21,397 bases of DNA from a virus. The position numbers were made by a program, and so were the translations under genes. The stretch's first letter is position 1, and each line of letters begins with the position of its first letter. The notes below the pieces were generated by a model that saw only the letters and a list, made by a program, of their open reading frames with translations, was not told the origin of the DNA and searched no databases. Below, piece after piece: positions 303 to 10,764 of this stretch. Where the stretch lies: the IMG/VR virus record IMGVR_UViG_3300035698_021598, positions 1-21,397 of that record; one strand, 5' to 3'.

Positions 303-1187
303 TCAAGAAATTCTTTTAAGGAACTCATCTCGTGTTGCTGCATCCTCTCTAAAGGCACCTAATAAAGATGTGGTAGTAAATACTGAATTTTGACTCCTAA
401 CACCTCTCATAAGCATACAAAGGTGCTGTGCTTCAACTACTACACCCACTCCTTCTGGATATAAATCTTCCATTAATTGAGAAGAAATTTGAGAAGTAAG
501 ACGCTCTTGAATCTGTAATCTACGACTAAATACTTCTACTAATCTAACAAGTTTTGATGTACCTACAATACTACCTTTTCTGGGTATATATCCAATATGA
601 ACTTTGCCAAAGAAAGGTAACATATGATGCTCACACATTGAATAAAAATTAATGTCTTTTAATATAATCATTTGATCAGCATTTGGCTCTGTAAAGGTAG
701 TTAATTTTACTTCTTCCTCATAACCTCTATATAACTCATTCCATGACTTTAAAACACGTTTAGGCGTATCAACAAGTCCTTCTCTGGATGGATCTTCACC
801 TATATACTCCAGTTGTCGCACGATTAAATCTTCGGCATCTTTCTGTTCATCTTCCCAAGGAAATACCAACCACGTTCCCGGCTCATCTTTCGCATCATAC
901 AAAGATATAAATTCCGCATTAGGATTTAGTGCCATGTATTTATCCCGAGTACGCCCTGAGGCAACAATATCATCAAGAATAATATCAACACATTCTTGAT
1001 GATCATAACAGCGTATAATAGATCTATTCAAATAAGAAGCAAATCCAAGTAATATCATTCCATTTTTAGGAATACCATACACATTTTTATTATTCATTTG
1101 ATCTAAATAAGGAGAAATTTTCTGTCTAATCTCTTCCCAACTTACTTTACGTTTATTAGTTTTTGCAACTGCAGGCTTAGTCTCCAT
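303..1187 (-). CDS. folE: Phosphoribosyltransferase-like domain fused to GTP cyclohydrolase I (FolE)
   Basis: 294 aa. Residues about 117-294 form a full GTP cyclohydrolase I, which converts GTP to dihydroneopterin triphosphate, the first step of 7-deazaguanine synthesis. The zinc and active-site signature CEHHMLPFFG (C185, H187/H188) and the second cysteine in QHLCMLMRGVR (C257) are present. Residues about 36-112 look like a type I phosphoribosyltransferase: GIPKNG at 39-43, the PRPP-binding DIILDDIVASGRT at 68-80, and a closing FPWE. Ordinary FolE is about 180-220 aa, so the front domain is a real addition. The domain order suggests salvage of a purine base to a nucleotide that feeds GTP to FolE; that is inference. 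The start follows GGAGG with 7-bp spacing. The gene is last in the operon and overlaps the 3' end of queE by 46 nt. Confidence 0.93.
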   Translation of the reverse strand: METKPAVAKTNKRKVSWEEIRQKISPYLDQMNNKNVYGIPKNGMILLGFASYLNRSIIRCYDHQECVDIILDDIVASGRTRDKYMALNPNAEFISLYDAKDEPGTWLVFPWEDEQKDAEDLIVRQLEYIGEDPSREGLVDTPKRVLKSWNELYRGYEEEVKLTTFTEPNADQMIILKDINFYSMCEHHMLPFFGKVHIGYIPRKGSIVGTSKLVRLVEVFSRRLQIQERLTSQISSQLMEDLYPEGVGVVVEAQHLCMLMRGVRSQNSVFTTTSLLGAFREDAATRDEFLKRIS

Positions 1188-1738
1188 CTTGGATCCTCCA
1201 TAATGATATTAGTTAATTGTTTCATTGTATGATTAAATGGGGTAGTTATACCACTCACATAACCCCACTCTGGTTGAAGAAAATAATAATGAAAATCAGA
1301 ATCAAAATATTTTTCTAATTCTTCAGCGGTTTGTCCATTCCATATTACTTTGAGTTCATGACCAGATGTTAAAATCCAATTTTTTTTCGGTGAAACAGTT
1401 ACCCAAGAAAGATGTTTTTTTATTTCTTTAGATAAAGGAATAGTTCCATTTGTTTCAATATGTATATGATAACGTTCTAAAATAAGATAATGAAGTAAGT
1501 TTAAATCAATATGTAGTGCTGGTTCACCTCCGGTTAAACAAATATGTTTTATACTACTTCCCCTAATTCGATCAATTAACCCCTCCGCTGTCAATTCTAA
1601 ATTAACTTTATCATGATTAGTATCACACCACTGACATTTTAAATTACATCCAGAGAACCGGATAAATATCATAGCAGTTCCAGCCCACAATCCTTCTCCT
1701 TGTACACTCTGGAATATTTCATTAATTTTATAGTTCAT
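1142..1738 (-). CDS. queE: 7-carboxy-7-deazaguanine synthase QueE (radical SAM)
   Basis: 198 aa from the ATG at 1738; GTG 1750 and TTG 1747 lie too close to the AAAGGAAG ribosome site. QueE is a radical SAM enzyme that contracts the ring of CPH4 to give 7-carboxy-7-deazaguanine. The sequence shows the early FQSVQGEG motif, the cluster-binding CNLKCQWC (CX3CX2C, C31/C35/C38) and the glycine-rich TGGEP (69-73) that contacts SAM. The C-terminal LSLQLQK is a conserved QueE feature. The 5' end overlaps queD and the 3' end runs 46 nt into folE, so translation is probably coupled. Length fits the compact QueE type. I see no missing key residue. Confidence 0.95.
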   Translation of the reverse strand: MNYKINEIFQSVQGEGLWAGTAMIFIRFSGCNLKCQWCDTNHDKVNLELTAEGLIDRIRGSSIKHICLTGGEPALHIDLNLLHYLILERYHIHIETNGTIPLSKEIKKHLSWVTVSPKKNWILTSGHELKVIWNGQTAEELEKYFDSDFHYYFLQPEWGYVSGITTPFNHTMKQLTNIIMEDPRWRLSLQLQKLINVK

Positions 1739-2075
1739 AAATTGCAACACTTCCTTTCGTTTCTTCTACAGCAACTCGGTAACATACAGCATGTAATGAC
1801 TCAATAGCAACATTTACTTCTTCATGTATTAATCTGGCAAAATGCTCTGCAGTTGGCTGTCCCATATAGTCATTCAAATTCTGATGATCAAATTTCATAA
1901 CTGCTTTTTTAAGCAAAGCAAAATCCATGACCATACCTTCAGAATTTAATTTTTCAGCATGTAAATAAACAGTCACATAATAATTATGACCATGCATATT
2001 TTCACAAGGAGAATCATATGGTAATACCAAATAATGACTCGCTGAAATTTGAACAGTTTTCCTAAGTTTGTACAT
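1728..2075 (-). CDS. queD: 6-carboxytetrahydropterin synthase QueD
   Basis: 115 aa. QueD converts dihydroneopterin triphosphate, the FolE product, to 6-carboxy-tetrahydropterin. The zinc histidines appear as SASH (H14) and HGH (H28, H30), the catalytic cysteine is C24 in CENMHGH, and DHQNLNDY (63-70), PTAEHFA and the C-terminal VEET glutamates match the family. I chose the ATG at 2075 because GGAG lies upstream and the protein then begins at the usual place; an upstream ATG at 2132 would add 19 basic residues but has only a weak ribosome site. It sits between queF and queE with a 168-bp gap upstream, the largest in this operon, so some independent expression is possible. Confidence 0.95.
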   Translation of the reverse strand: MYKLRKTVQISASHYLVLPYDSPCENMHGHNYYVTVYLHAEKLNSEGMVMDFALLKKAVMKFDHQNLNDYMGQPTAEHFARLIHEEVNVAIESLHAVCYRVAVEETKGSVAIYEL

Positions 2076-2170
2076 TATTTTAAATCTCCTTTCAAATTGC
2101 CTTAAAGCACGTTTAAACAGTATCTGCTGCATTTTACTTTACTTAAGGTATGTTTATATGCCTCACTCCC

Positions 2171-2190
2171 TGAAACGATAAGTCGTTTCA
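2171..2190. other. Perfect hairpin in the queF-queD gap
   Basis: TGAAACGA (2171-2178) and TCGTTTCA (2183-2190) form an 8-bp perfect stem with a TAAG loop. No run of T follows on the minus strand, so it is not a standard intrinsic terminator; an RNA processing or stability element fits better. A TATAAT-like hexamer lies nearby on the minus strand, upstream of the hairpin, but without a good -35. I compared the gap with the preQ1-I riboswitch layout and did not find the C-rich loop and A-rich tail. Confidence 0.5.
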
Positions 2191-2243
2191 ACTCAATAGG
2201 ATACAAGCATTATACTTTAACTATATATAGAACGTACTATTAT

Positions 2244-2705
2244 TCAATCTCCTATTAAAACTTCATGTTTTTTTACTGGAAATTCATCAATAATTTCAAA
2301 ACCACCTTTAACTAATCTGGTACTAATTCCACCCCTCACAGCCACATTAATTTCAACACGAAGTTTTAGCGGTTTGACAGCCCTGAAGAAATCATCATAG
2401 ATTTTATTAATCAAATGTTCGTGCAAGATTGGCAAGTCACGGTACTCAATAAAATACAATCTAAGACTCTTCAATTCTGGTATGTACTTATTAGGCGTCC
2501 AGATAATTTTTAATTCATAATTATCCGGTAAACCAGTCATTGGACAAACACCTTCAAGTTCATTATAATTATATGTGACTTCTGTATTACTATCCTTTAA
2601 AAAATCAAGTGCAGTAATGGCACGAAGCGATGTATTTAAAATTTCTTCTTGCATTTTTCTAACATCTTCAACAGACATGTCTTCAATGTGTTTCCACTTT
2701 TCCAT
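2244..2705 (-). CDS. queF: NADPH-dependent 7-cyano-7-deazaguanine reductase QueF
   Basis: 153 aa, the size of unimodular QueF. The enzyme reduces the nitrile of preQ0 to the aminomethyl of preQ1 using NADPH. Visible hallmarks are the nucleophilic cysteine in EGVCPMTGLPD (C54, with D61 seven residues later), the diagnostic QueF NADPH motif ELKSLRLYF (77-85), and the HE pair at 95-96. Presence of the NADPH motif argues against the archaeal QueF-like amidinotransferase, which lacks it. The start at 2705 has AAGGAGG 8 bp upstream. Lying between queC and queD in a dpdA operon, it implies that the DNA mark is preQ1 or a derivative rather than preQ0. QueF could alternatively serve tRNA queuosine, but the context favours DNA. 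Confidence 0.94.
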   Translation of the reverse strand: MEKWKHIEDMSVEDVRKMQEEILNTSLRAITALDFLKDSNTEVTYNYNELEGVCPMTGLPDNYELKIIWTPNKYIPELKSLRLYFIEYRDLPILHEHLINKIYDDFFRAVKPLKLRVEINVAVRGGISTRLVKGGFEIIDEFPVKKHEVLIGD

Positions 2706-2748
2706 CGTAACTTCCTCCTTAAGGTGGTATAACCTAGTTAAGTTTGCA

Positions 2749-3414
2749 TTATTCTATATAATCTGTATGATCATGTACACCTGCTTTTTTAAATGCGCTA
2801 CGTCGTTCTCTACACGTTCCGCAAACCCCACAATGTTTTTCACCACCTTTATAACAACTATATGTAAGATGTAATGGAACTTTCATTATAAATCCTTCAT
2901 TTACAATTTCTGCTTTATTCATATGAAGAAATGGTGATTCTAAAGATACTTTTCTATTTGTACCAATATTTATAGCATTAAACATATTAGATATAAAAGT
3001 AGGTGTGCAGTCTGGATATAGAGTATGATCACCAGCATGATTGGCAATAGCAATATGGTAGCAATTTATACTCTCGGCATAACCAGCAGCGATGGACAGC
3101 ATTATCCCATTACGAAAAGGAACTACTGTACTGCCCATATTGTCTCTATCATATGAACCATCTGGAATATCATCTCCACCTTCTAATAAAGCTGATTTAA
3201 AAAGTTGCCCAATAAAAGGTAACTCAATTGAAATTAAATTTTCATTCTTTAACTTATAATGTTTGAATATTCTTCTTACAGCAAGATATTCCCTGAAATG
3301 ATGTTTCTGCCCATAATTAAAATGAAGTGCAGTAACATCATAATCTAAATCTAAATAATGAGTAAGCAAAACTGTACTATCTAAACCGCCTGAATAAATC
3401 AACACCGTCTTCAT
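2749..3414 (-). CDS. queC: 7-cyano-7-deazaguanine synthase QueC
   Basis: 221 aa. QueC is an ATP-dependent ligase that turns 7-carboxy-7-deazaguanine and ammonia into preQ0. The PP-loop SGGLDST is at 8-14, and the C-terminal zinc cysteines are C187, C195, C198 and C201 in the CYKGGEKHCGVCGTC region. The family's RNG(I/M) active-site segment is visible as PFRNGIML. The ATG at 3414 has GGGAG 6 bp upstream; an upstream ATG at 3444 lies within dpdA and has no better site. The 5' 38 nt overlap the 3' end of dpdA. Nothing is missing. Confidence 0.96.
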   Translation of the reverse strand: MKTVLIYSGGLDSTVLLTHYLDLDYDVTALHFNYGQKHHFREYLAVRRIFKHYKLKNENLISIELPFIGQLFKSALLEGGDDIPDGSYDRDNMGSTVVPFRNGIMLSIAAGYAESINCYHIAIANHAGDHTLYPDCTPTFISNMFNAINIGTNRKVSLESPFLHMNKAEIVNEGFIMKVPLHLTYSCYKGGEKHCGVCGTCRERRSAFKKAGVHDHTDYIE

Positions 3415-4303
3415 GAATAACTCCCTTCTCCATCCAGTGATCATAAATGTTTAGAACCCTTTGAGCAACCTGTATCCCAACGGCTAAGTGAAATTTAATT
3501 TTATGATGCAGATAAATATCAATAGCATACAGTATCCATGCCTTCATGGTTATCTGACCCATGAATGATTCTAAACCATCCCTTCCCCACCAATTCTCAT
3601 CCTTCAAGATTTCACGATAATCAATTCCATATACTTGAAGAGTTTTTTGTATCTTTTTACTCGGAACTCCCATGGAAGGAACGTCCCGCCGTTTCAATAC
3701 CCACCATTGAGCACCGCCTAAATATACTTCTAATGAGCCCCATTGTGCTCCTCTCATGAAATTAGTATTATCCACACTATATGGTTTATAATAATACATC
3801 AATGGTTTGTTCACATAACCGAGCCAGTGTACTTTTCGTTTGCCAATCTCCCGCATCACTCGTTTAATATATCCCATTTCAATTTTAGCAAAACCACCTT
3901 CAAGAGCACCTATTGCAACTAAAGGATTTAAGTCATACAATCCATCTATTTCCTTTATTTTTTCTCCTTTCGTAAAAATAGGAATTGGATGTAATCCAGC
4001 ATCATACATAATATTAAGATTCTTTTTTGTAATAACTGGATTACCAAGAACATCCAATTGAAAATATCCATCAACTGGGAAAGGGATTCTTTTTATGTAT
4101 GAAATATAATCTTGTAATCCAGTTTCTAAATTTCCACTCTGGACTGAAAATGCACCACAGTCAATTATCAGACTAATATCTTTTGCTCGATCCTGAAAGA
4201 GTTTAATGCACGTTTCAAGCTTCCCGGATGATCTTTTATTTTTGCTTTTCAGATGCTGATAACTCATGAGCAAATTCAATTTCATTTTAGGAGACTTTGA
4301 CAT
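3377..4303 (-). CDS. dpdA: DpdA-like DNA 7-deazaguanine transglycosylase
   Basis: 308 aa. DpdA proteins are tRNA-guanine transglycosylase relatives that exchange guanine in DNA for a 7-deazaguanine base. The TIM-barrel TGT-like strands are visible: IIDCGAFS (46-53), GYFQLDVLGNP (79-89, with the aspartate expected in substrate binding or catalysis), HPIPIF, VAIGALEGG and VHWLGYVN. I recognise the overall pattern of phage DpdA; the precise subfamily cannot be fixed by eye. The ATG at 4303 is preceded by GGGGGA with 8-bp spacing. Its 5' end overlaps the ParB-like gene by 17 nt and its 3' end overlaps queC. Being in one operon with all preQ0/preQ1 genes makes a DNA role far more likely than tRNA modification. 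Confidence 0.87.
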   Translation of the reverse strand: MSKSPKMKLNLLMSYQHLKSKNKRSSGKLETCIKLFQDRAKDISLIIDCGAFSVQSGNLETGLQDYISYIKRIPFPVDGYFQLDVLGNPVITKKNLNIMYDAGLHPIPIFTKGEKIKEIDGLYDLNPLVAIGALEGGFAKIEMGYIKRVMREIGKRKVHWLGYVNKPLMYYYKPYSVDNTNFMRGAQWGSLEVYLGGAQWWVLKRRDVPSMGVPSKKIQKTLQVYGIDYREILKDENWWGRDGLESFMGQITMKAWILYAIDIYLHHKIKFHLAVGIQVAQRVLNIYDHWMEKGVIHEDGVDLFRRFR

Positions 4304-4913
4304 CTTTATATTCCCCCAATACTCCATTGAGTTTTTCAACAATCTCGTCTTTAAGCAGGAATGGACATCTTATCTTTATAAAACAAGTAAGACCATCTTC
4401 ATTCTCCTTCAAATCTTCAATTGTTTTAAAATCAGAATCCCATAACAATTGAGCTTCTTTAAATTCCTTTTCTGTATATCCGGTATTCTCAGCAGTTAAA
4501 TCAAGATCCTCATTCTGCATGAGCATGCTCAAAACATCAGCATCCCATTCAGCAAATTCACTGGCTTTATTATCTGATAAGGCATAAGCAGTTGCTGCTG
4601 ATTTCGATTTGAATTTATGGAACACCACAGGAACCTTAGCATATCCCAGATACTTCAATGCTTTTAATGTCAAGTTACCTTTATAAATACACATGTTATC
4701 TTCCCAGGCAATTAACGGTGAGGGAATACCGTGCATCTTTATAAGTTGTGCTAATTTCTCAACCATTGAAGTAGTATGCACTCGTGGATTACCTTCCCAG
4801 TTATGCACATCACCTATTGGTACATTTAAGATCACTGGAAGAGTGGTATCAATCTTTTTCGTTTTTTTGCTGATCATCCGTGTTTTAATTTTCTTTATCT
4901 TCATTATATACAT
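4287..4913 (-). CDS. ParB/Srx-fold protein upstream of dpdA
   Basis: 208 aa. The N-terminal 20 residues are very basic. Residues about 27-125 form a ParB/Sulfiredoxin-type domain: NVPIGDVHNWEGNPRVH (ParB box I-like, NPR at 42-44), IYKGNLTLKALKYLG in the box II position, and SDNKASEFAEWD, a signature common in phage ParB-like proteins next to DNA-modification genes. These are not partition ParBs; some are nucleases or CTP-dependent DNA clamps, and here a role in guiding or licensing DNA modification is only inferred. The ATG at 4913 directly follows the upstream stop; the in-frame ATG at 4904 is an alternative start. The 3' end overlaps dpdA by 17 nt. Confidence 0.8.
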   Translation of the reverse strand: MYIMKIKKIKTRMISKKTKKIDTTLPVILNVPIGDVHNWEGNPRVHTTSMVEKLAQLIKMHGIPSPLIAWEDNMCIYKGNLTLKALKYLGYAKVPVVFHKFKSKSAATAYALSDNKASEFAEWDADVLSMLMQNEDLDLTAENTGYTEKEFKEAQLLWDSDFKTIEDLKENEDGLTCFIKIRCPFLLKDEIVEKLNGVLGEYKDVKVS

Positions 4914-5414: not shown

Positions 5415-5906
5415 TCACTTAAAAGGATTTTTGAACATCTTTCTTAATTGAGTAGCTTGTGCAGACCGAGCAGACCAAGCAGCAGACTCAGCAGCAGACC
5501 GAGCAGCAGACCAAGCAGCAGACTCAGCGGCAAACTCAGCAGCAGACCGAGCAGCAGACCGAGCAGCAGACCAAGCAGCAGACCAAGCAGCAGACCGAGC
5601 AGCAGACCCGGCAGCAGACAACTCTTCTCTTGTGGCTTGACCATTAGCAAATTTTTCCGCTACATCACAAGCCTCAATGCTTCGCTTGTCCGTATCTTTG
5701 GTAAAGGTTTGTCTTGCGTCCCACACCGCAAATAATCTTAACTGCTTATCTGTTCCATAATCAAGTTCATCCATAACCCAGAGCATCCAGTCTGAGCGTT
5801 CACATTTTTCCCATGCTTCGTGCATAGTTTGAATATTGTTTTCTTTAATCCATTCTATCGCTTCACTACAAGCCTTATGTTTTTTGCACCATGTTATAGC
5901 TTTCAT
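5415..5906 (-). CDS. Imm5-like protein with Ala/Ser-rich repeat domain
   Basis: 163 aa. The first 70 residues (MKAITWCKKHKACSEAIEW, then AWEKCERSDWMLWVMDELDYG) resemble the start of the putative immunity protein family Imm5, often seen in phages. Residues about 97-150 are a low-complexity array of SAAWSAARSAAE-type repeats encoded by 12-nt DNA repeats, followed by a short basic tail. The array should form one long amphipathic helix. Such repeats vary in number between related phages; repeat expansion by slippage is likely. AGGGG lies at a good distance from the ATG. Function is unknown; immunity-protein homology does not show that it protects from a toxin here. Confidence 0.8.
   Translation of the reverse strand: MKAITWCKKHKACSEAIEWIKENNIQTMHEAWEKCERSDWMLWVMDELDYGTDKQLRLFAVWDARQTFTKDTDKRSIEACDVAEKFANGQATREELSAAGSAARSAAWSAAWSAARSAARSAAEFAAESAAWSAARSAAESAAWSARSAQATQLRKMFKNPFK
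5461..5620. repeat. 12-nt tandem repeat array inside the Ala-rich gene
   Basis: About thirteen degenerate copies of a 12-nt unit of the form AGCAGACCRAGC, in frame with the minus-strand gene (Ser-Ala-Ala-Arg/Trp/Glu). The purine/CAG-rich sequence gives long open frames in several other frames; these are artefacts of the repeat. Confidence 0.9.
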
Positions 5907-6523: not shown

Positions 6524-6601
6524 TATGTGGTTTAATGCGCTCTGGACAAGCTCAACACAGAATGCACGGTATATTCCAGTCATTTGTCATTTGCCACCCG
6601 T
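6524..6601. repeat. 78-bp direct repeat, copy 2
   Basis: Partner of 5924-6001. This copy contains the authentic 3' end of the Lar-like gene, so it is probably the parent copy. Confidence 0.95.
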
Positions 6602-6800
6602 CTGTTCCACGCATTAACAAGGTTTTTTTCCGTGTGTAGTTCCGGTCAATACCCACAGGACATTTTCTACATTCAAGAGTATATATCCCTTTTGGAAATC
6701 CCGGATTTATTGATTTTGTTATCTGTGCACGGCTGCCACAAAACGGGCATGGTTTTAATTTGGCTTTCACCATCTCAGCAAACTCCATTCTACTGTTCAT
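6552..6800 (-). CDS. Lar-like zinc-ribbon protein
   Basis: 82 aa. KLKPCPFCGSRAQI with a second pair in LECRKC gives a four-cysteine zinc ribbon, and the C-terminal GWQMTNDWN matches the conserved tryptophan/asparagine end of the Lar (restriction alleviation) family. Lar of the Rac prophage lowers type I restriction by enhancing modification, but most phage homologues are untested. AAGGAGG with 7-bp spacing selects the ATG at 6800 over a GTG one codon upstream. The start overlaps the stop of the upstream gene (ATGA). Confidence 0.72.
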   Translation of the reverse strand: MNSRMEFAEMVKAKLKPCPFCGSRAQITKSINPGFPKGIYTLECRKCPVGIDRNYTRKKTLLMRGTDGWQMTNDWNIPCILC

Positions 6801-7471
6801 CACAATACCTCCTTCTTAATCACCTTGATCACCTGAATGTAGGGGTTAACATGGATTGTTAGAGATTTACCCTTGTAAGTATGTTCTGACGCCATCCACC
6901 AATCTTCAGGCATAGCCCCTTTCATACTATAAGGATATATGACATACCCATCACCTTTGCGGACCGGTTTGGCATGAAGGGCGTTCCAGTGGTCTGATAA
7001 CTCTTTTGCAATATCTTCCTGTGGGCATATATTATTATAAATCCCTATATCATACATATCTTGAACACTCAACTCCTGCACCCTCTTAACCGTTGTCTCA
7101 ACCGTCACCTTATACCTAACGACAGATAAGGGCATTGTGACAGGGGAGTTCCAATATCCTTTTTCGTGGGATGTATTTTCCGGTAAGTCGTCTGCCAAAT
7201 AAACATACCCTTCATCAATATCCCATTGCCAAGCTTCCTTCACCAGATACTCACCTGATGGGAACTGGAGAGGAATGTCACATCCAAATACAGGCTCTTG
7301 TAGTATTAGCTTTGTTGGTTGATGGTATTTCTTTTTCCATTTGACAAAATGAGCCTTCTCATGATATATGCAATCTAATGTTTGTCCTTCTGGTGGCTGT
7401 TTCTTCAACACTCTCAGCAAAACCGAGCCAACATCCGGTGATTCACCTTTTTTGAGATTTATATGCTTCAT
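6800..7471 (-). CDS. ASCH/PUA-like phage protein
   Basis: 223 aa. The pattern YLVKEAWQWD, then a YWNSPVTMPLSVVRYKVTVE segment, then KRVQELSVQDMYDIGI, then ELSDHWNALHAK and a closing IQVIKV is that of a widespread phage family with a PUA/ASCH-like barrel. ASCH domains bind RNA or modified nucleotides; some cleave modified nucleosides. Here a link to nucleic-acid modification is tempting but unproven. GGAGGG stands at a good distance from the ATG. The 3' end is coupled to the Lar-like gene. Confidence 0.68.
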   Translation of the reverse strand: MKHINLKKGESPDVGSVLLRVLKKQPPEGQTLDCIYHEKAHFVKWKKKYHQPTKLILQEPVFGCDIPLQFPSGEYLVKEAWQWDIDEGYVYLADDLPENTSHEKGYWNSPVTMPLSVVRYKVTVETTVKRVQELSVQDMYDIGIYNNICPQEDIAKELSDHWNALHAKPVRKGDGYVIYPYSMKGAMPEDWWMASEHTYKGKSLTIHVNPYIQVIKVIKKEVL

Positions 7472-9857: not shown

Positions 9858-10472
9858 TTATTTATAATCTACATTTATAAGTTCTAAAATTTTATTCAAA
9901 CCTAATGTAAAAATACAATATTTATATAACTGTGGATGTGTTTGCTTCATCAATTGAAAACGATTTGGATATTTATCAAAATGTACCCCAAACATACAAA
10001 ATATACAACCTGTATTTTTATATCCCATATTATAAATCTTTGAATAAGGTACATTAAATTGTTTTATATAATCCCATATATCCTTTTCTGTCCAAAATGC
10101 TAAAGGATTTGAGCGAGGATGCTCACTTATAAAATTATTACAACCACCTCTTTTATAAGCAAAAGCTCGGGATGAAGAATCAATTGCTTTCAATCCAATA
10201 AATGGTTTCTTCCTACTTCTTTTTTCATACTCACGTGCCGGGTTTATTTTGAGTATATTGCAACATTTTTTAGAAAATTTAAAATCTGCATCAATTAAAT
10301 ATCTCCATTTCTGTGCTAATTTAACATCTTCCCATTTAGCAAAAGTACCATCTCTTTTTTCACCTGTTAGAATATATCTCCGTATATTAACATTTTTATC
10401 AGAAGGATTCTGTAAATATTCCAATTGCTGACAGATTTTTTTTTGATAATATAGGATAACCATAAGTTTCAA
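9858..10472 (-). CDS. PAPS reductase-like protein, C-terminal part after a frameshift
   Basis: Carries the C-terminal two-thirds of a phosphoadenosine-phosphosulfate-reductase-like protein: the KKCCNILKINPAREYEK segment, IGLKAIDSSSR and GCIFCMFG with paired cysteines. It overlaps the N-terminal part by 74 nt in another frame. Continuity of the family pattern places the junction at nine adenines (minus strand of 10436-10444). One base fewer there, or a +1 slip, would fuse the two parts into about 300 aa. An ATG at 10472 exists but has no convincing ribosome site and would leave an enzyme without its PP-loop. Confidence 0.72.
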   Translation of the reverse strand: MKLMVILYYQKKICQQLEYLQNPSDKNVNIRRYILTGEKRDGTFAKWEDVKLAQKWRYLIDADFKFSKKCCNILKINPAREYEKRSRKKPFIGLKAIDSSSRAFAYKRGGCNNFISEHPRSNPLAFWTEKDIWDYIKQFNVPYSKIYNMGYKNTGCIFCMFGVHFDKYPNRFQLMKQTHPQLYKYCIFTLGLNKILELINVDYK

Positions 10473-10764
10473 GTACCTTTTTAAAAGTCATTTTTGGTTT
10501 TAACCAACGTACATTTTTTATAGTTTTTACAAATTCTCTTATCTCCGGGAATTCTAATCCTGTATCATTAAATACACCCCAAACTCGTGGATATAATTTA
10601 CGTACAAGATGCAATAATACAGTACTATCTTTTCCACCAGAAAATGCTACATAAATTAAACCATCCCAGTGATCATACCACTCTCTAATACGTTTTTCAC
10701 TCATTAATATTTTAATATCTAATGGTAATGATTGTCTTTGTTTTAATTGCCAATTTTCTAACAT
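10399..10764 (-). CDS. PAPS reductase-like protein, N-terminal part with PP-loop
   Basis: 121 aa as read. VAFSGGKDSTVLLHLV is a textbook PP-loop of the PAPS reductase/ATP sulfurylase family, and NDTGLEFPEI is the second conserved block. After YGYPILSKK the frame runs into unrelated residues and stops at 10399, while the expected continuation is in the overlapping frame. Phages often carry these proteins near replication or modification genes; substrates are mostly unknown. The ATG at 10764 overlaps the polymerase stop by 7 nt. The break at an A9 run may be an assembly or sequencing indel, a real mutation or programmed slippage. Confidence 0.75.
   Translation of the reverse strand: MLENWQLKQRQSLPLDIKILMSEKRIREWYDHWDGLIYVAFSGGKDSTVLLHLVRKLYPRVWGVFNDTGLEFPEIREFVKTIKNVRWLKPKMTFKKVLETYGYPILSKKNLSAIGIFTESF

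Follow-up and report, generated by a model that had tools for sequence, protein, structure and literature searches.

We analysed a 21,397-base virus fragment (IMG/VR virus record IMGVR_UViG_3300035698_021598, positions 1 to 21,397; this whole stretch is called the window) and found on its minus strand, at 303–4913, seven genes that, judging from their families and motifs, very probably form a viral operon for DNA modification with 7-deazaguanines, of the 7-aminomethyl-7-deazaguanine (preQ1) type. The last of these genes (303..1187, minus strand) encodes in one open frame a 294-residue fusion of a Gpt-type phosphoribosyltransferase (PRT) domain with FolE, the guanosine triphosphate (GTP) cyclohydrolase I. 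This PRT-FolE fusion recurs in viral 7-deazaguanine operons. Our reading of the whole, to which we give a probability of about 0.5, is that the operon would place preQ1 in the phage DNA and that the PRT domain would recycle the guanine.

The first-pass annotation of this DNA had treated FolE as a plain enzyme and had overlooked its N-terminal part. The catalytic domain of the open reading frame (ORF) starts near residue 121 (residues 121–292; 312..827, minus strand) and matched Pfam GTP_cyclohydroI at 4.1e-69, and the first 118 residues matched phosphoribosyltransferases of the Gpt family, that is, xanthine-guanine phosphoribosyltransferase (XGPRT). With a hidden Markov model built from 102 related domains and leaving the window out, the window domain (residues 9–118; 834..1163, minus strand) scored 86.8 bits (E 4e-24), and the best of 200 shuffles scored 3.9. 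A seven-row profile of phage PRT domains that included the window matched XGPRT and purine PRTs in the PDB over the full domain, at 6e-12 to 1e-9; a six-row alignment without the window matched a xanthine phosphoribosyltransferase more weakly (8.7e-6). The seven-row profile was needed, since a phmmer search of the PDB with the window domain alone returned noise only.

Conservation was then read from 103 distinct PRT domains. The acidic pair of the phosphoribosyl pyrophosphate (PRPP) motif was present in all of them, a few stand-alone copies having Glu there; the catalytic Asp and the Trp at the purine-stacking position were each kept in 100, and the Arg and Lys of the pyrophosphate (PPi) loop in 88 and 86, respectively. 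We take the roles of the Asp, Arg and Trp from XGPRT and hypoxanthine-guanine phosphoribosyltransferase (HGPRT). This pattern fits what would be expected of an active purine PRT. In the window copy, the PRPP motif reads LDDIVASGRT with its acidic pair and small loop, and the purine-stacking Trp is kept as W106.

Single-protein scans of IMG/VR with DpdA, QueF or the FolE N-terminus gave no relatives, and alignments were required. A scan with the PRT alignment yielded 80 loci that were kept; 60 of these have the PRT and FolE joined in a single frame, 74 have FolE and 73 have at least one of QueC, QueD and QueE. Where fused loci had at least 3.5 kb on both flanks, DpdA was found in 29 of 30, and the thirtieth had it elsewhere in the contig. 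A FolE-based scan blind to the PRT gave 80 loci, with the fusion in 32, a separate PRT gene in 3 and no PRT in 45. Overall, 96 fused proteins were collected, forming 56 clusters at 70% identity; the PRT came first in all 96, and 49 of the 56 clusters had DpdA in some locus. The loci are not independent, 19 FolE ORFs being present in two each. The fusion is carried, for example, by VpKK5, Quinobequin-P09, PSASB_03, MMDA13 and Vibrio phage 1.207.B, and in one IMG/VR locus (L013) PRT-FolE, QueC, QueF, DpdA and ParB are consecutive. A narrow scan of bacterial genomes with a close six-row alignment found one relative among 60 pattern matches, adjoining a partial QueE in a Lewinella metagenome-assembled genome, and gave no sign of a widespread bacterial form. 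A literature search of partial coverage found no paper that joins a phosphoribosyltransferase to FolE or DpdA in phages; in the portion of PMC7824862 that was available, both words occur in unrelated passages only.

The PRT also occurs as a separate gene. It was found together with a second class of DpdA, which had escaped our first DpdA profile, in loci L075, L076, L080, L083, L088, L090, L091 and L165 and in phage immuto. Brevundimonas phage MaInes carries adjacent FolE and PRT genes with QueC, QueD, QueE and a second-class DpdA, and in Pseudomonas phage MIJ3 gpt and queE are neighbours. In Campylobacter phage CP220, the PRT (CPT_0182; L180 5870–6283) is Gpt-like (E 1.5e-8) and is described in the phage record as having a purine phosphoribosyltransferase domain, and the 'hypothetical' protein CPT_0056 (L178 8995–9771) shares 44% identity with the protein annotated as DpdA in immuto and is thus a homologue of the second class. 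A 2023 paper reportedly gives such Campylobacter phages a later-named DpdA subfamily. In the part of PMC6884629 (2019) that was seen, Campylobacter phages are placed in a group without DpdA. Phage immuto also has a formyltransferase-like gene between DpdA and QueF (L008 12091–12618). A preQ1 formyltransferase is reportedly known from phages of this kind.

All seven operon genes were present, contiguous and mostly overlapping, as the first-pass annotation had described them. Read from 4913 down to 303, the order is ParB-like, DpdA, QueC, QueF, QueD, QueE and FolE; four of the six junctions overlap, and the two gaps measure 43 bases (QueC/QueF) and 111 bases (QueF/QueD). The genes for synthesis of 7-cyano-7-deazaguanine (preQ0), folE, queD, queE and queC, were all identified with Pfam, PHROG and NCBI family models. 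QueC, the preQ0 synthase (2749..3444), is without a Gat domain and matched Pfam QueC at 1.8e-58 and TIGR00364 above its cut-off. QueD, the 6-carboxytetrahydropterin synthase (1728..2132), matched Pfam PTPS at 4.8e-28 and scored 79.5 bits with TIGR03367, below the cut-off of 89.25. QueE, the radical SAM 7-carboxy-7-deazaguanine synthase (1142..1738), matched Pfam Radical_SAM at 5e-12, PHROG 2076 at 1.5e-32 and TIGR04508 at 9.5e-37, the last below cut-off. These family matches are far above chance level; QueE, QueD and QueF fall under the strict NCBI cut-offs, as divergent phage copies may. The earlier statement that a full route from GTP to preQ1 plus a DNA-type guanine transglycosylase is encoded agrees with the family matches, the motifs and the fold described below.

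The base that the operon would insert depends on QueF, a predicted preQ0 reductase of the unimodular type dependent on reduced nicotinamide adenine dinucleotide phosphate (NADPH) (2244..2705, minus strand; Pfam QueF 1.3e-17). It scored 85.4 bits with TIGR03139 (cut-off 86.9) and retains the active-site residues C54, D61 and E96. The consensus of the QueF NADPH motif is E(S/L)K(S/A)hK(L/Y)(Y/F/W). The first-pass annotation had called this motif intact, which is nearly so: it reads ELKSLRLY, with one K-to-R change that is unique to the window among 20 aligned QueF proteins, 18 of the 19 others having K (some rows are identical copies). The nearest solved structure in the PDB was Bacillus subtilis QueF (1.4e-9), against 1.1e-3 for the archaeal amidinotransferase QueF-L. 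In the part of PMC6884629 (Hutinet 2019) that was available, the preQ1 deoxynucleoside (dPreQ1) is reported by mass spectrometry at about 1.7% of G in Streptococcus phage Dp-1 and about 30% of G in HVTV-1, both of which carry a QueF of the window's group; deoxyarchaeosine (dG+) was not found in Dp-1. Together with the similar gene set of Cellulophaga phage phi38:2, the motif, the QueF-side PDB match and the measured dPreQ1 make preQ1 the probable inserted base, and they also take away the novelty that had been claimed for a QueF-type set, since phages in which dPreQ1 was measured were already known to carry such sets. A preQ1-type mark is still the best prediction, as first proposed; we infer the chemical product and its place in the DNA from genes, not from chemistry. 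The accessible text of the same paper leaves undecided whether QueF acts before or after base insertion, and another dPreQ1 candidate such as this one would help to settle the question.

The window DpdA, the putative DNA guanine transglycosylase (3377..4342, minus strand; TTG start, internal ATG at 4327), matched PHROG 887 at 1.3e-19. It gave no Pfam match, and because a DpdA profile had no sequence match in the PDB, the fold was used instead. A model made with AlphaFold from an alignment of 46 viral sequences reached a predicted local distance difference test (pLDDT) score of 89.5; P0001, predicted without an alignment, had 39.9 and was of no use. When the DpdA model was compared with known structures (VIA), all 50 matches listed were tRNA-guanine transglycosylases (TGTs), the best being 2ash (Z 14.5 over 240 residues, 12% identity); Foldseek gave a weaker match (E 8e-4). 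D61, H172 and D191 are the same in all of 40 sequences compared, and D97 is almost invariant. We take D61, D97 and D191 to be the catalytic aspartates of TGTs and H172 to be a histidine specific to DpdA. A CxCxxC zinc site is a mark of tRNA-acting TGTs; the window ORF has three cysteines and lacks this motif. Its phage relatives in tblastn carry the labels DpdA or queuine tRNA-ribosyltransferase, and Enterobacteria phage 9g showed 28.6% identity across 48% of the query. Clustering of this protein with tRNA-acting enzymes had been named beforehand as a finding that would speak against DNA modification; in our comparison, which used no tree, there was no Pfam match and no CxCxxC motif, and the best matches were phage DpdA proteins. 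On the modelled fold, the conserved residues and the missing zinc motif, we assign the window protein to the phage DpdA family and, by motif, predict that it is not a tRNA-type TGT. The DpdA2 subfamily (Vibrio phage nt-1) is described as lacking the conserved DpdA His196; the window protein has the invariant His172 (its own numbering), which may correspond to His196.

Upstream lies a gene for a 208-residue ParB-like protein (4287..4913, minus strand), which overlaps the start of dpdA and matched PHROG 620 at 9.6e-27 and Pfam ParB_N at 1.3e-3, below cut-off. A ParB-like gene was found within 1 kb of 49 of the 99 distinct class-1 DpdA ORFs versus none of the 15 second-class ORFs, and in one contig (L028 10885–12417, shared with L162) a 511-residue frame fuses DpdA (residues 5–219) to a ParB-like domain (residues 280–450). 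The ParB-like protein is likely a DNA-binding, nucleoside triphosphate-dependent partner that would bring DpdA to DNA. Its recurrence with class-1 DpdA makes it another testable clue to the way in which DpdA locates or opens DNA.

From the computed genes, folds, motifs, fusion and recurrence we infer the following scheme. FolE, QueD, QueE and QueC would convert GTP to preQ0, QueF would reduce preQ0 to preQ1, and DpdA, probably with help at the DNA from the ParB-like protein whose gene overlaps its own, would swap guanine in the phage DNA for preQ1; in an alternative order, DpdA would insert preQ0 and QueF would then reduce it in place. The modified phage DNA would be protected from host restriction enzymes. 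In a TGT-like base exchange, one guanine is expelled and one GTP is spent for each base inserted, and a Gpt-type enzyme converts guanine and PRPP to guanosine monophosphate (GMP). The PRT domain of the fusion would most likely turn the guanine expelled by DpdA and PRPP into GMP, from which kinases would make GTP again as substrate for the FolE domain of the same protein. We tentatively propose that the Gpt-type PRT, joined to FolE in many unrelated viruses and encoded by a nearby gene in others, is an overlooked part of the system, which may catch the guanine removed by DpdA and feed its own FolE, so that the operon would be partly self-supplied. Where a virus replaces a large share of its guanine, the flux of GTP and guanine would presumably be large; if the proposal is true, a salvage domain on the first enzyme of the pathway would mean that phages manage the waste of expelled guanine.

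Several observations weigh against this recycling. In the window, Ala76 (codon GCC, 960..962, minus strand) replaces the catalytic Asp, a change shared only with the domain of locus L046, a further related domain having Glu there; the PPi loop reads PKNG (within GIPKNG) in place of PRGG, with Lys41 at the position of the Arg. Because its catalytic Asp is Ala, the window copy may be weak, dead or changed in specificity. Hosts usually possess purine salvage of their own. The loci of the PRT scan were chosen by similarity to fused domains, and its six records without FolE may all be fragments. Among the 80 FolE loci found blind to the PRT, its absence from 45 marks it as an optional part, and the PRT family PF00156 was found in none of these 45 records, while 14 of 14 control genomes gave matches. 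Cellulophaga phage phiST has its PRT gene away from the 7-deazaguanine genes and FolE elsewhere in the record, in which QueC was not found. A link between the PRT and DpdA was also considered and given up: in a first contrast, DpdA accompanied 17 of 17 fused loci and 19 of 28 without the PRT (p 0.009), and after the second DpdA class was counted the figures were 17 of 17 and 25 of 28 (p 0.28). The PRT therefore tracks the operon and not DpdA in particular, and its connection with base exchange is argued from chemistry, not from the locus count.

The PRT domain may have other roles than guanine recycling. We regard as doubtful, though deserving attention, that it has no catalytic role and instead, by sensing PRPP or purine nucleotides, serves FolE in regulation or assembly. 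Type I PRT folds do regulate elsewhere, as in PurR and PyrR, and the catalytic Asp is absent from the window and L046; this role fits poorly with the conservation of the Asp and Trp in 100 domains each and of the PPi-loop Arg and Lys in most of the 103, and with the separate PRT genes in 7-deazaguanine operons. It is unlikely that the domain instead puts ribose phosphate on preQ0, preQ1 or another 7-deaza base, leading to a deoxynucleoside triphosphate (dNTP) that is polymerised beside or instead of base exchange. The Asp-to-Ala change of the window sits where HGPRT and XGPRT contact N7 of the purine, which is missing from 7-deaza bases; the domain is joined to the first enzyme of the pathway, MaInes has a deoxynucleoside monophosphate kinase and a ribonucleotide reductase nearby, and a dNTP route is mentioned as proposed for Campylobacter phages in the part of PMC6884629 that was seen. 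Yet a DpdA of either class accompanies the PRT in most loci with enough flank, even CP220 has a second-class DpdA homologue, and nearly all the domains keep the catalytic Asp.

The preQ1 mark on DNA was weighed against two other outcomes. Were QueF an amidinotransferase of the QueF-L kind, the mark would be archaeosine (dG+) and not dPreQ1; the accessible part of PMC6884629 calls sequence alone a poor guide to QueF versus QueF-L, and the window motif has its one change, but the motif is otherwise kept, the window protein is nearer to QueF than to QueF-L, and Dp-1 has dPreQ1 with no dG+ (same source, as far as seen), so that we hold this to be very unlikely. That the operon raises the host's queuosine precursor for tRNA and leaves the phage DNA unmodified seems most improbable of all: the precursor pathway would be identical, and such a role has been suggested for phages without DpdA (PMC6884629, portion available), but a phage-type DpdA without the zinc motif of tRNA-TGTs is present here, and the searched genes of the window showed no queA, queG or queH.

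Beyond the operon, the window (G+C about 29–43% in 1-kb windows) encodes on the minus strand a DNA polymerase A, a Toprim primase-like protein, an SNF2 helicase, a PD-(D/E)XK nuclease, a uracil-DNA glycosylase-like protein and an AAA ATPase. DNA-level searches gave no close relative of the virus, and PADLOC gave no dpd-system match. Beyond FolE the fragment has 302 more bases, without an ORF of at least 60 residues on the operon strand, so that tailoring genes farther downstream, and with them preQ1 derivatives, may exist. A small zinc-ribbon protein (6552–6803, minus strand) matched PHROG 599, a Lar-like restriction alleviation family, at 2.3e-7 and is a possible second anti-restriction gene. 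A PAPS-reductase-like gene (9858–10764, minus strand) is split into two overlapping frames, 10399–10764 and 9858–10472, close to nine consecutive A residues (10436–10444), which may reflect an assembly slip, a frameshift or decay. A 163-residue protein (5415–5906, minus strand) has a long Ala/Ser/Trp/Arg repeat tail (SAAWSAARSAA) and matched PHROG 18326, where no function is assigned. The non-coding left end (1–130) holds copies of AACGCAATA(TTG) in both orientations.

Among known systems, the Dp-1 operon queF-queC-queD-queE-folE-queT-dpdA (HQ268735) shares QueF, the full preQ0 set and DpdA with the window, but it has no PRT domain and, in the stretch read, no annotated ParB partner, and it differs in the presence of QueT and in gene order. 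In Cellulophaga phage phi38:2 (KC821629), FolE, QueF, DpdA, a ParB-like gene, QueC, QueD and QueE lie together as in the window; its record has no PRT domain and its gene order is different. Quinobequin-P09 (Pseudomonas) and VpKK5 (Vibrio), both Queuovirinae, carry PRT-FolE directly upstream of DpdA, with QueE, QueC and QueD; unlike the window, they showed no QueF in the stretch read and no ParB-like gene annotated beside DpdA, and Quinobequin has a Gat-QueC. In Flavobacterium phage immuto, as in the window, genes for a PRT, FolE, QueF and DpdA (so annotated in immuto) lie within a single stretch, but this 160-kb phage has the PRT as a separate gene, a second-class DpdA and a longer QueF (306 residues). 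Escherichia coli XGPRT (Gpt, PDB 1a95) resembles the viral PRT domain in its profile match, PRPP motif, PPi loop and Trp positions; it is a stand-alone protein of 152 residues, whereas the viral domain has about 110 residues and is fused to FolE, and the window copy is without the catalytic Asp.

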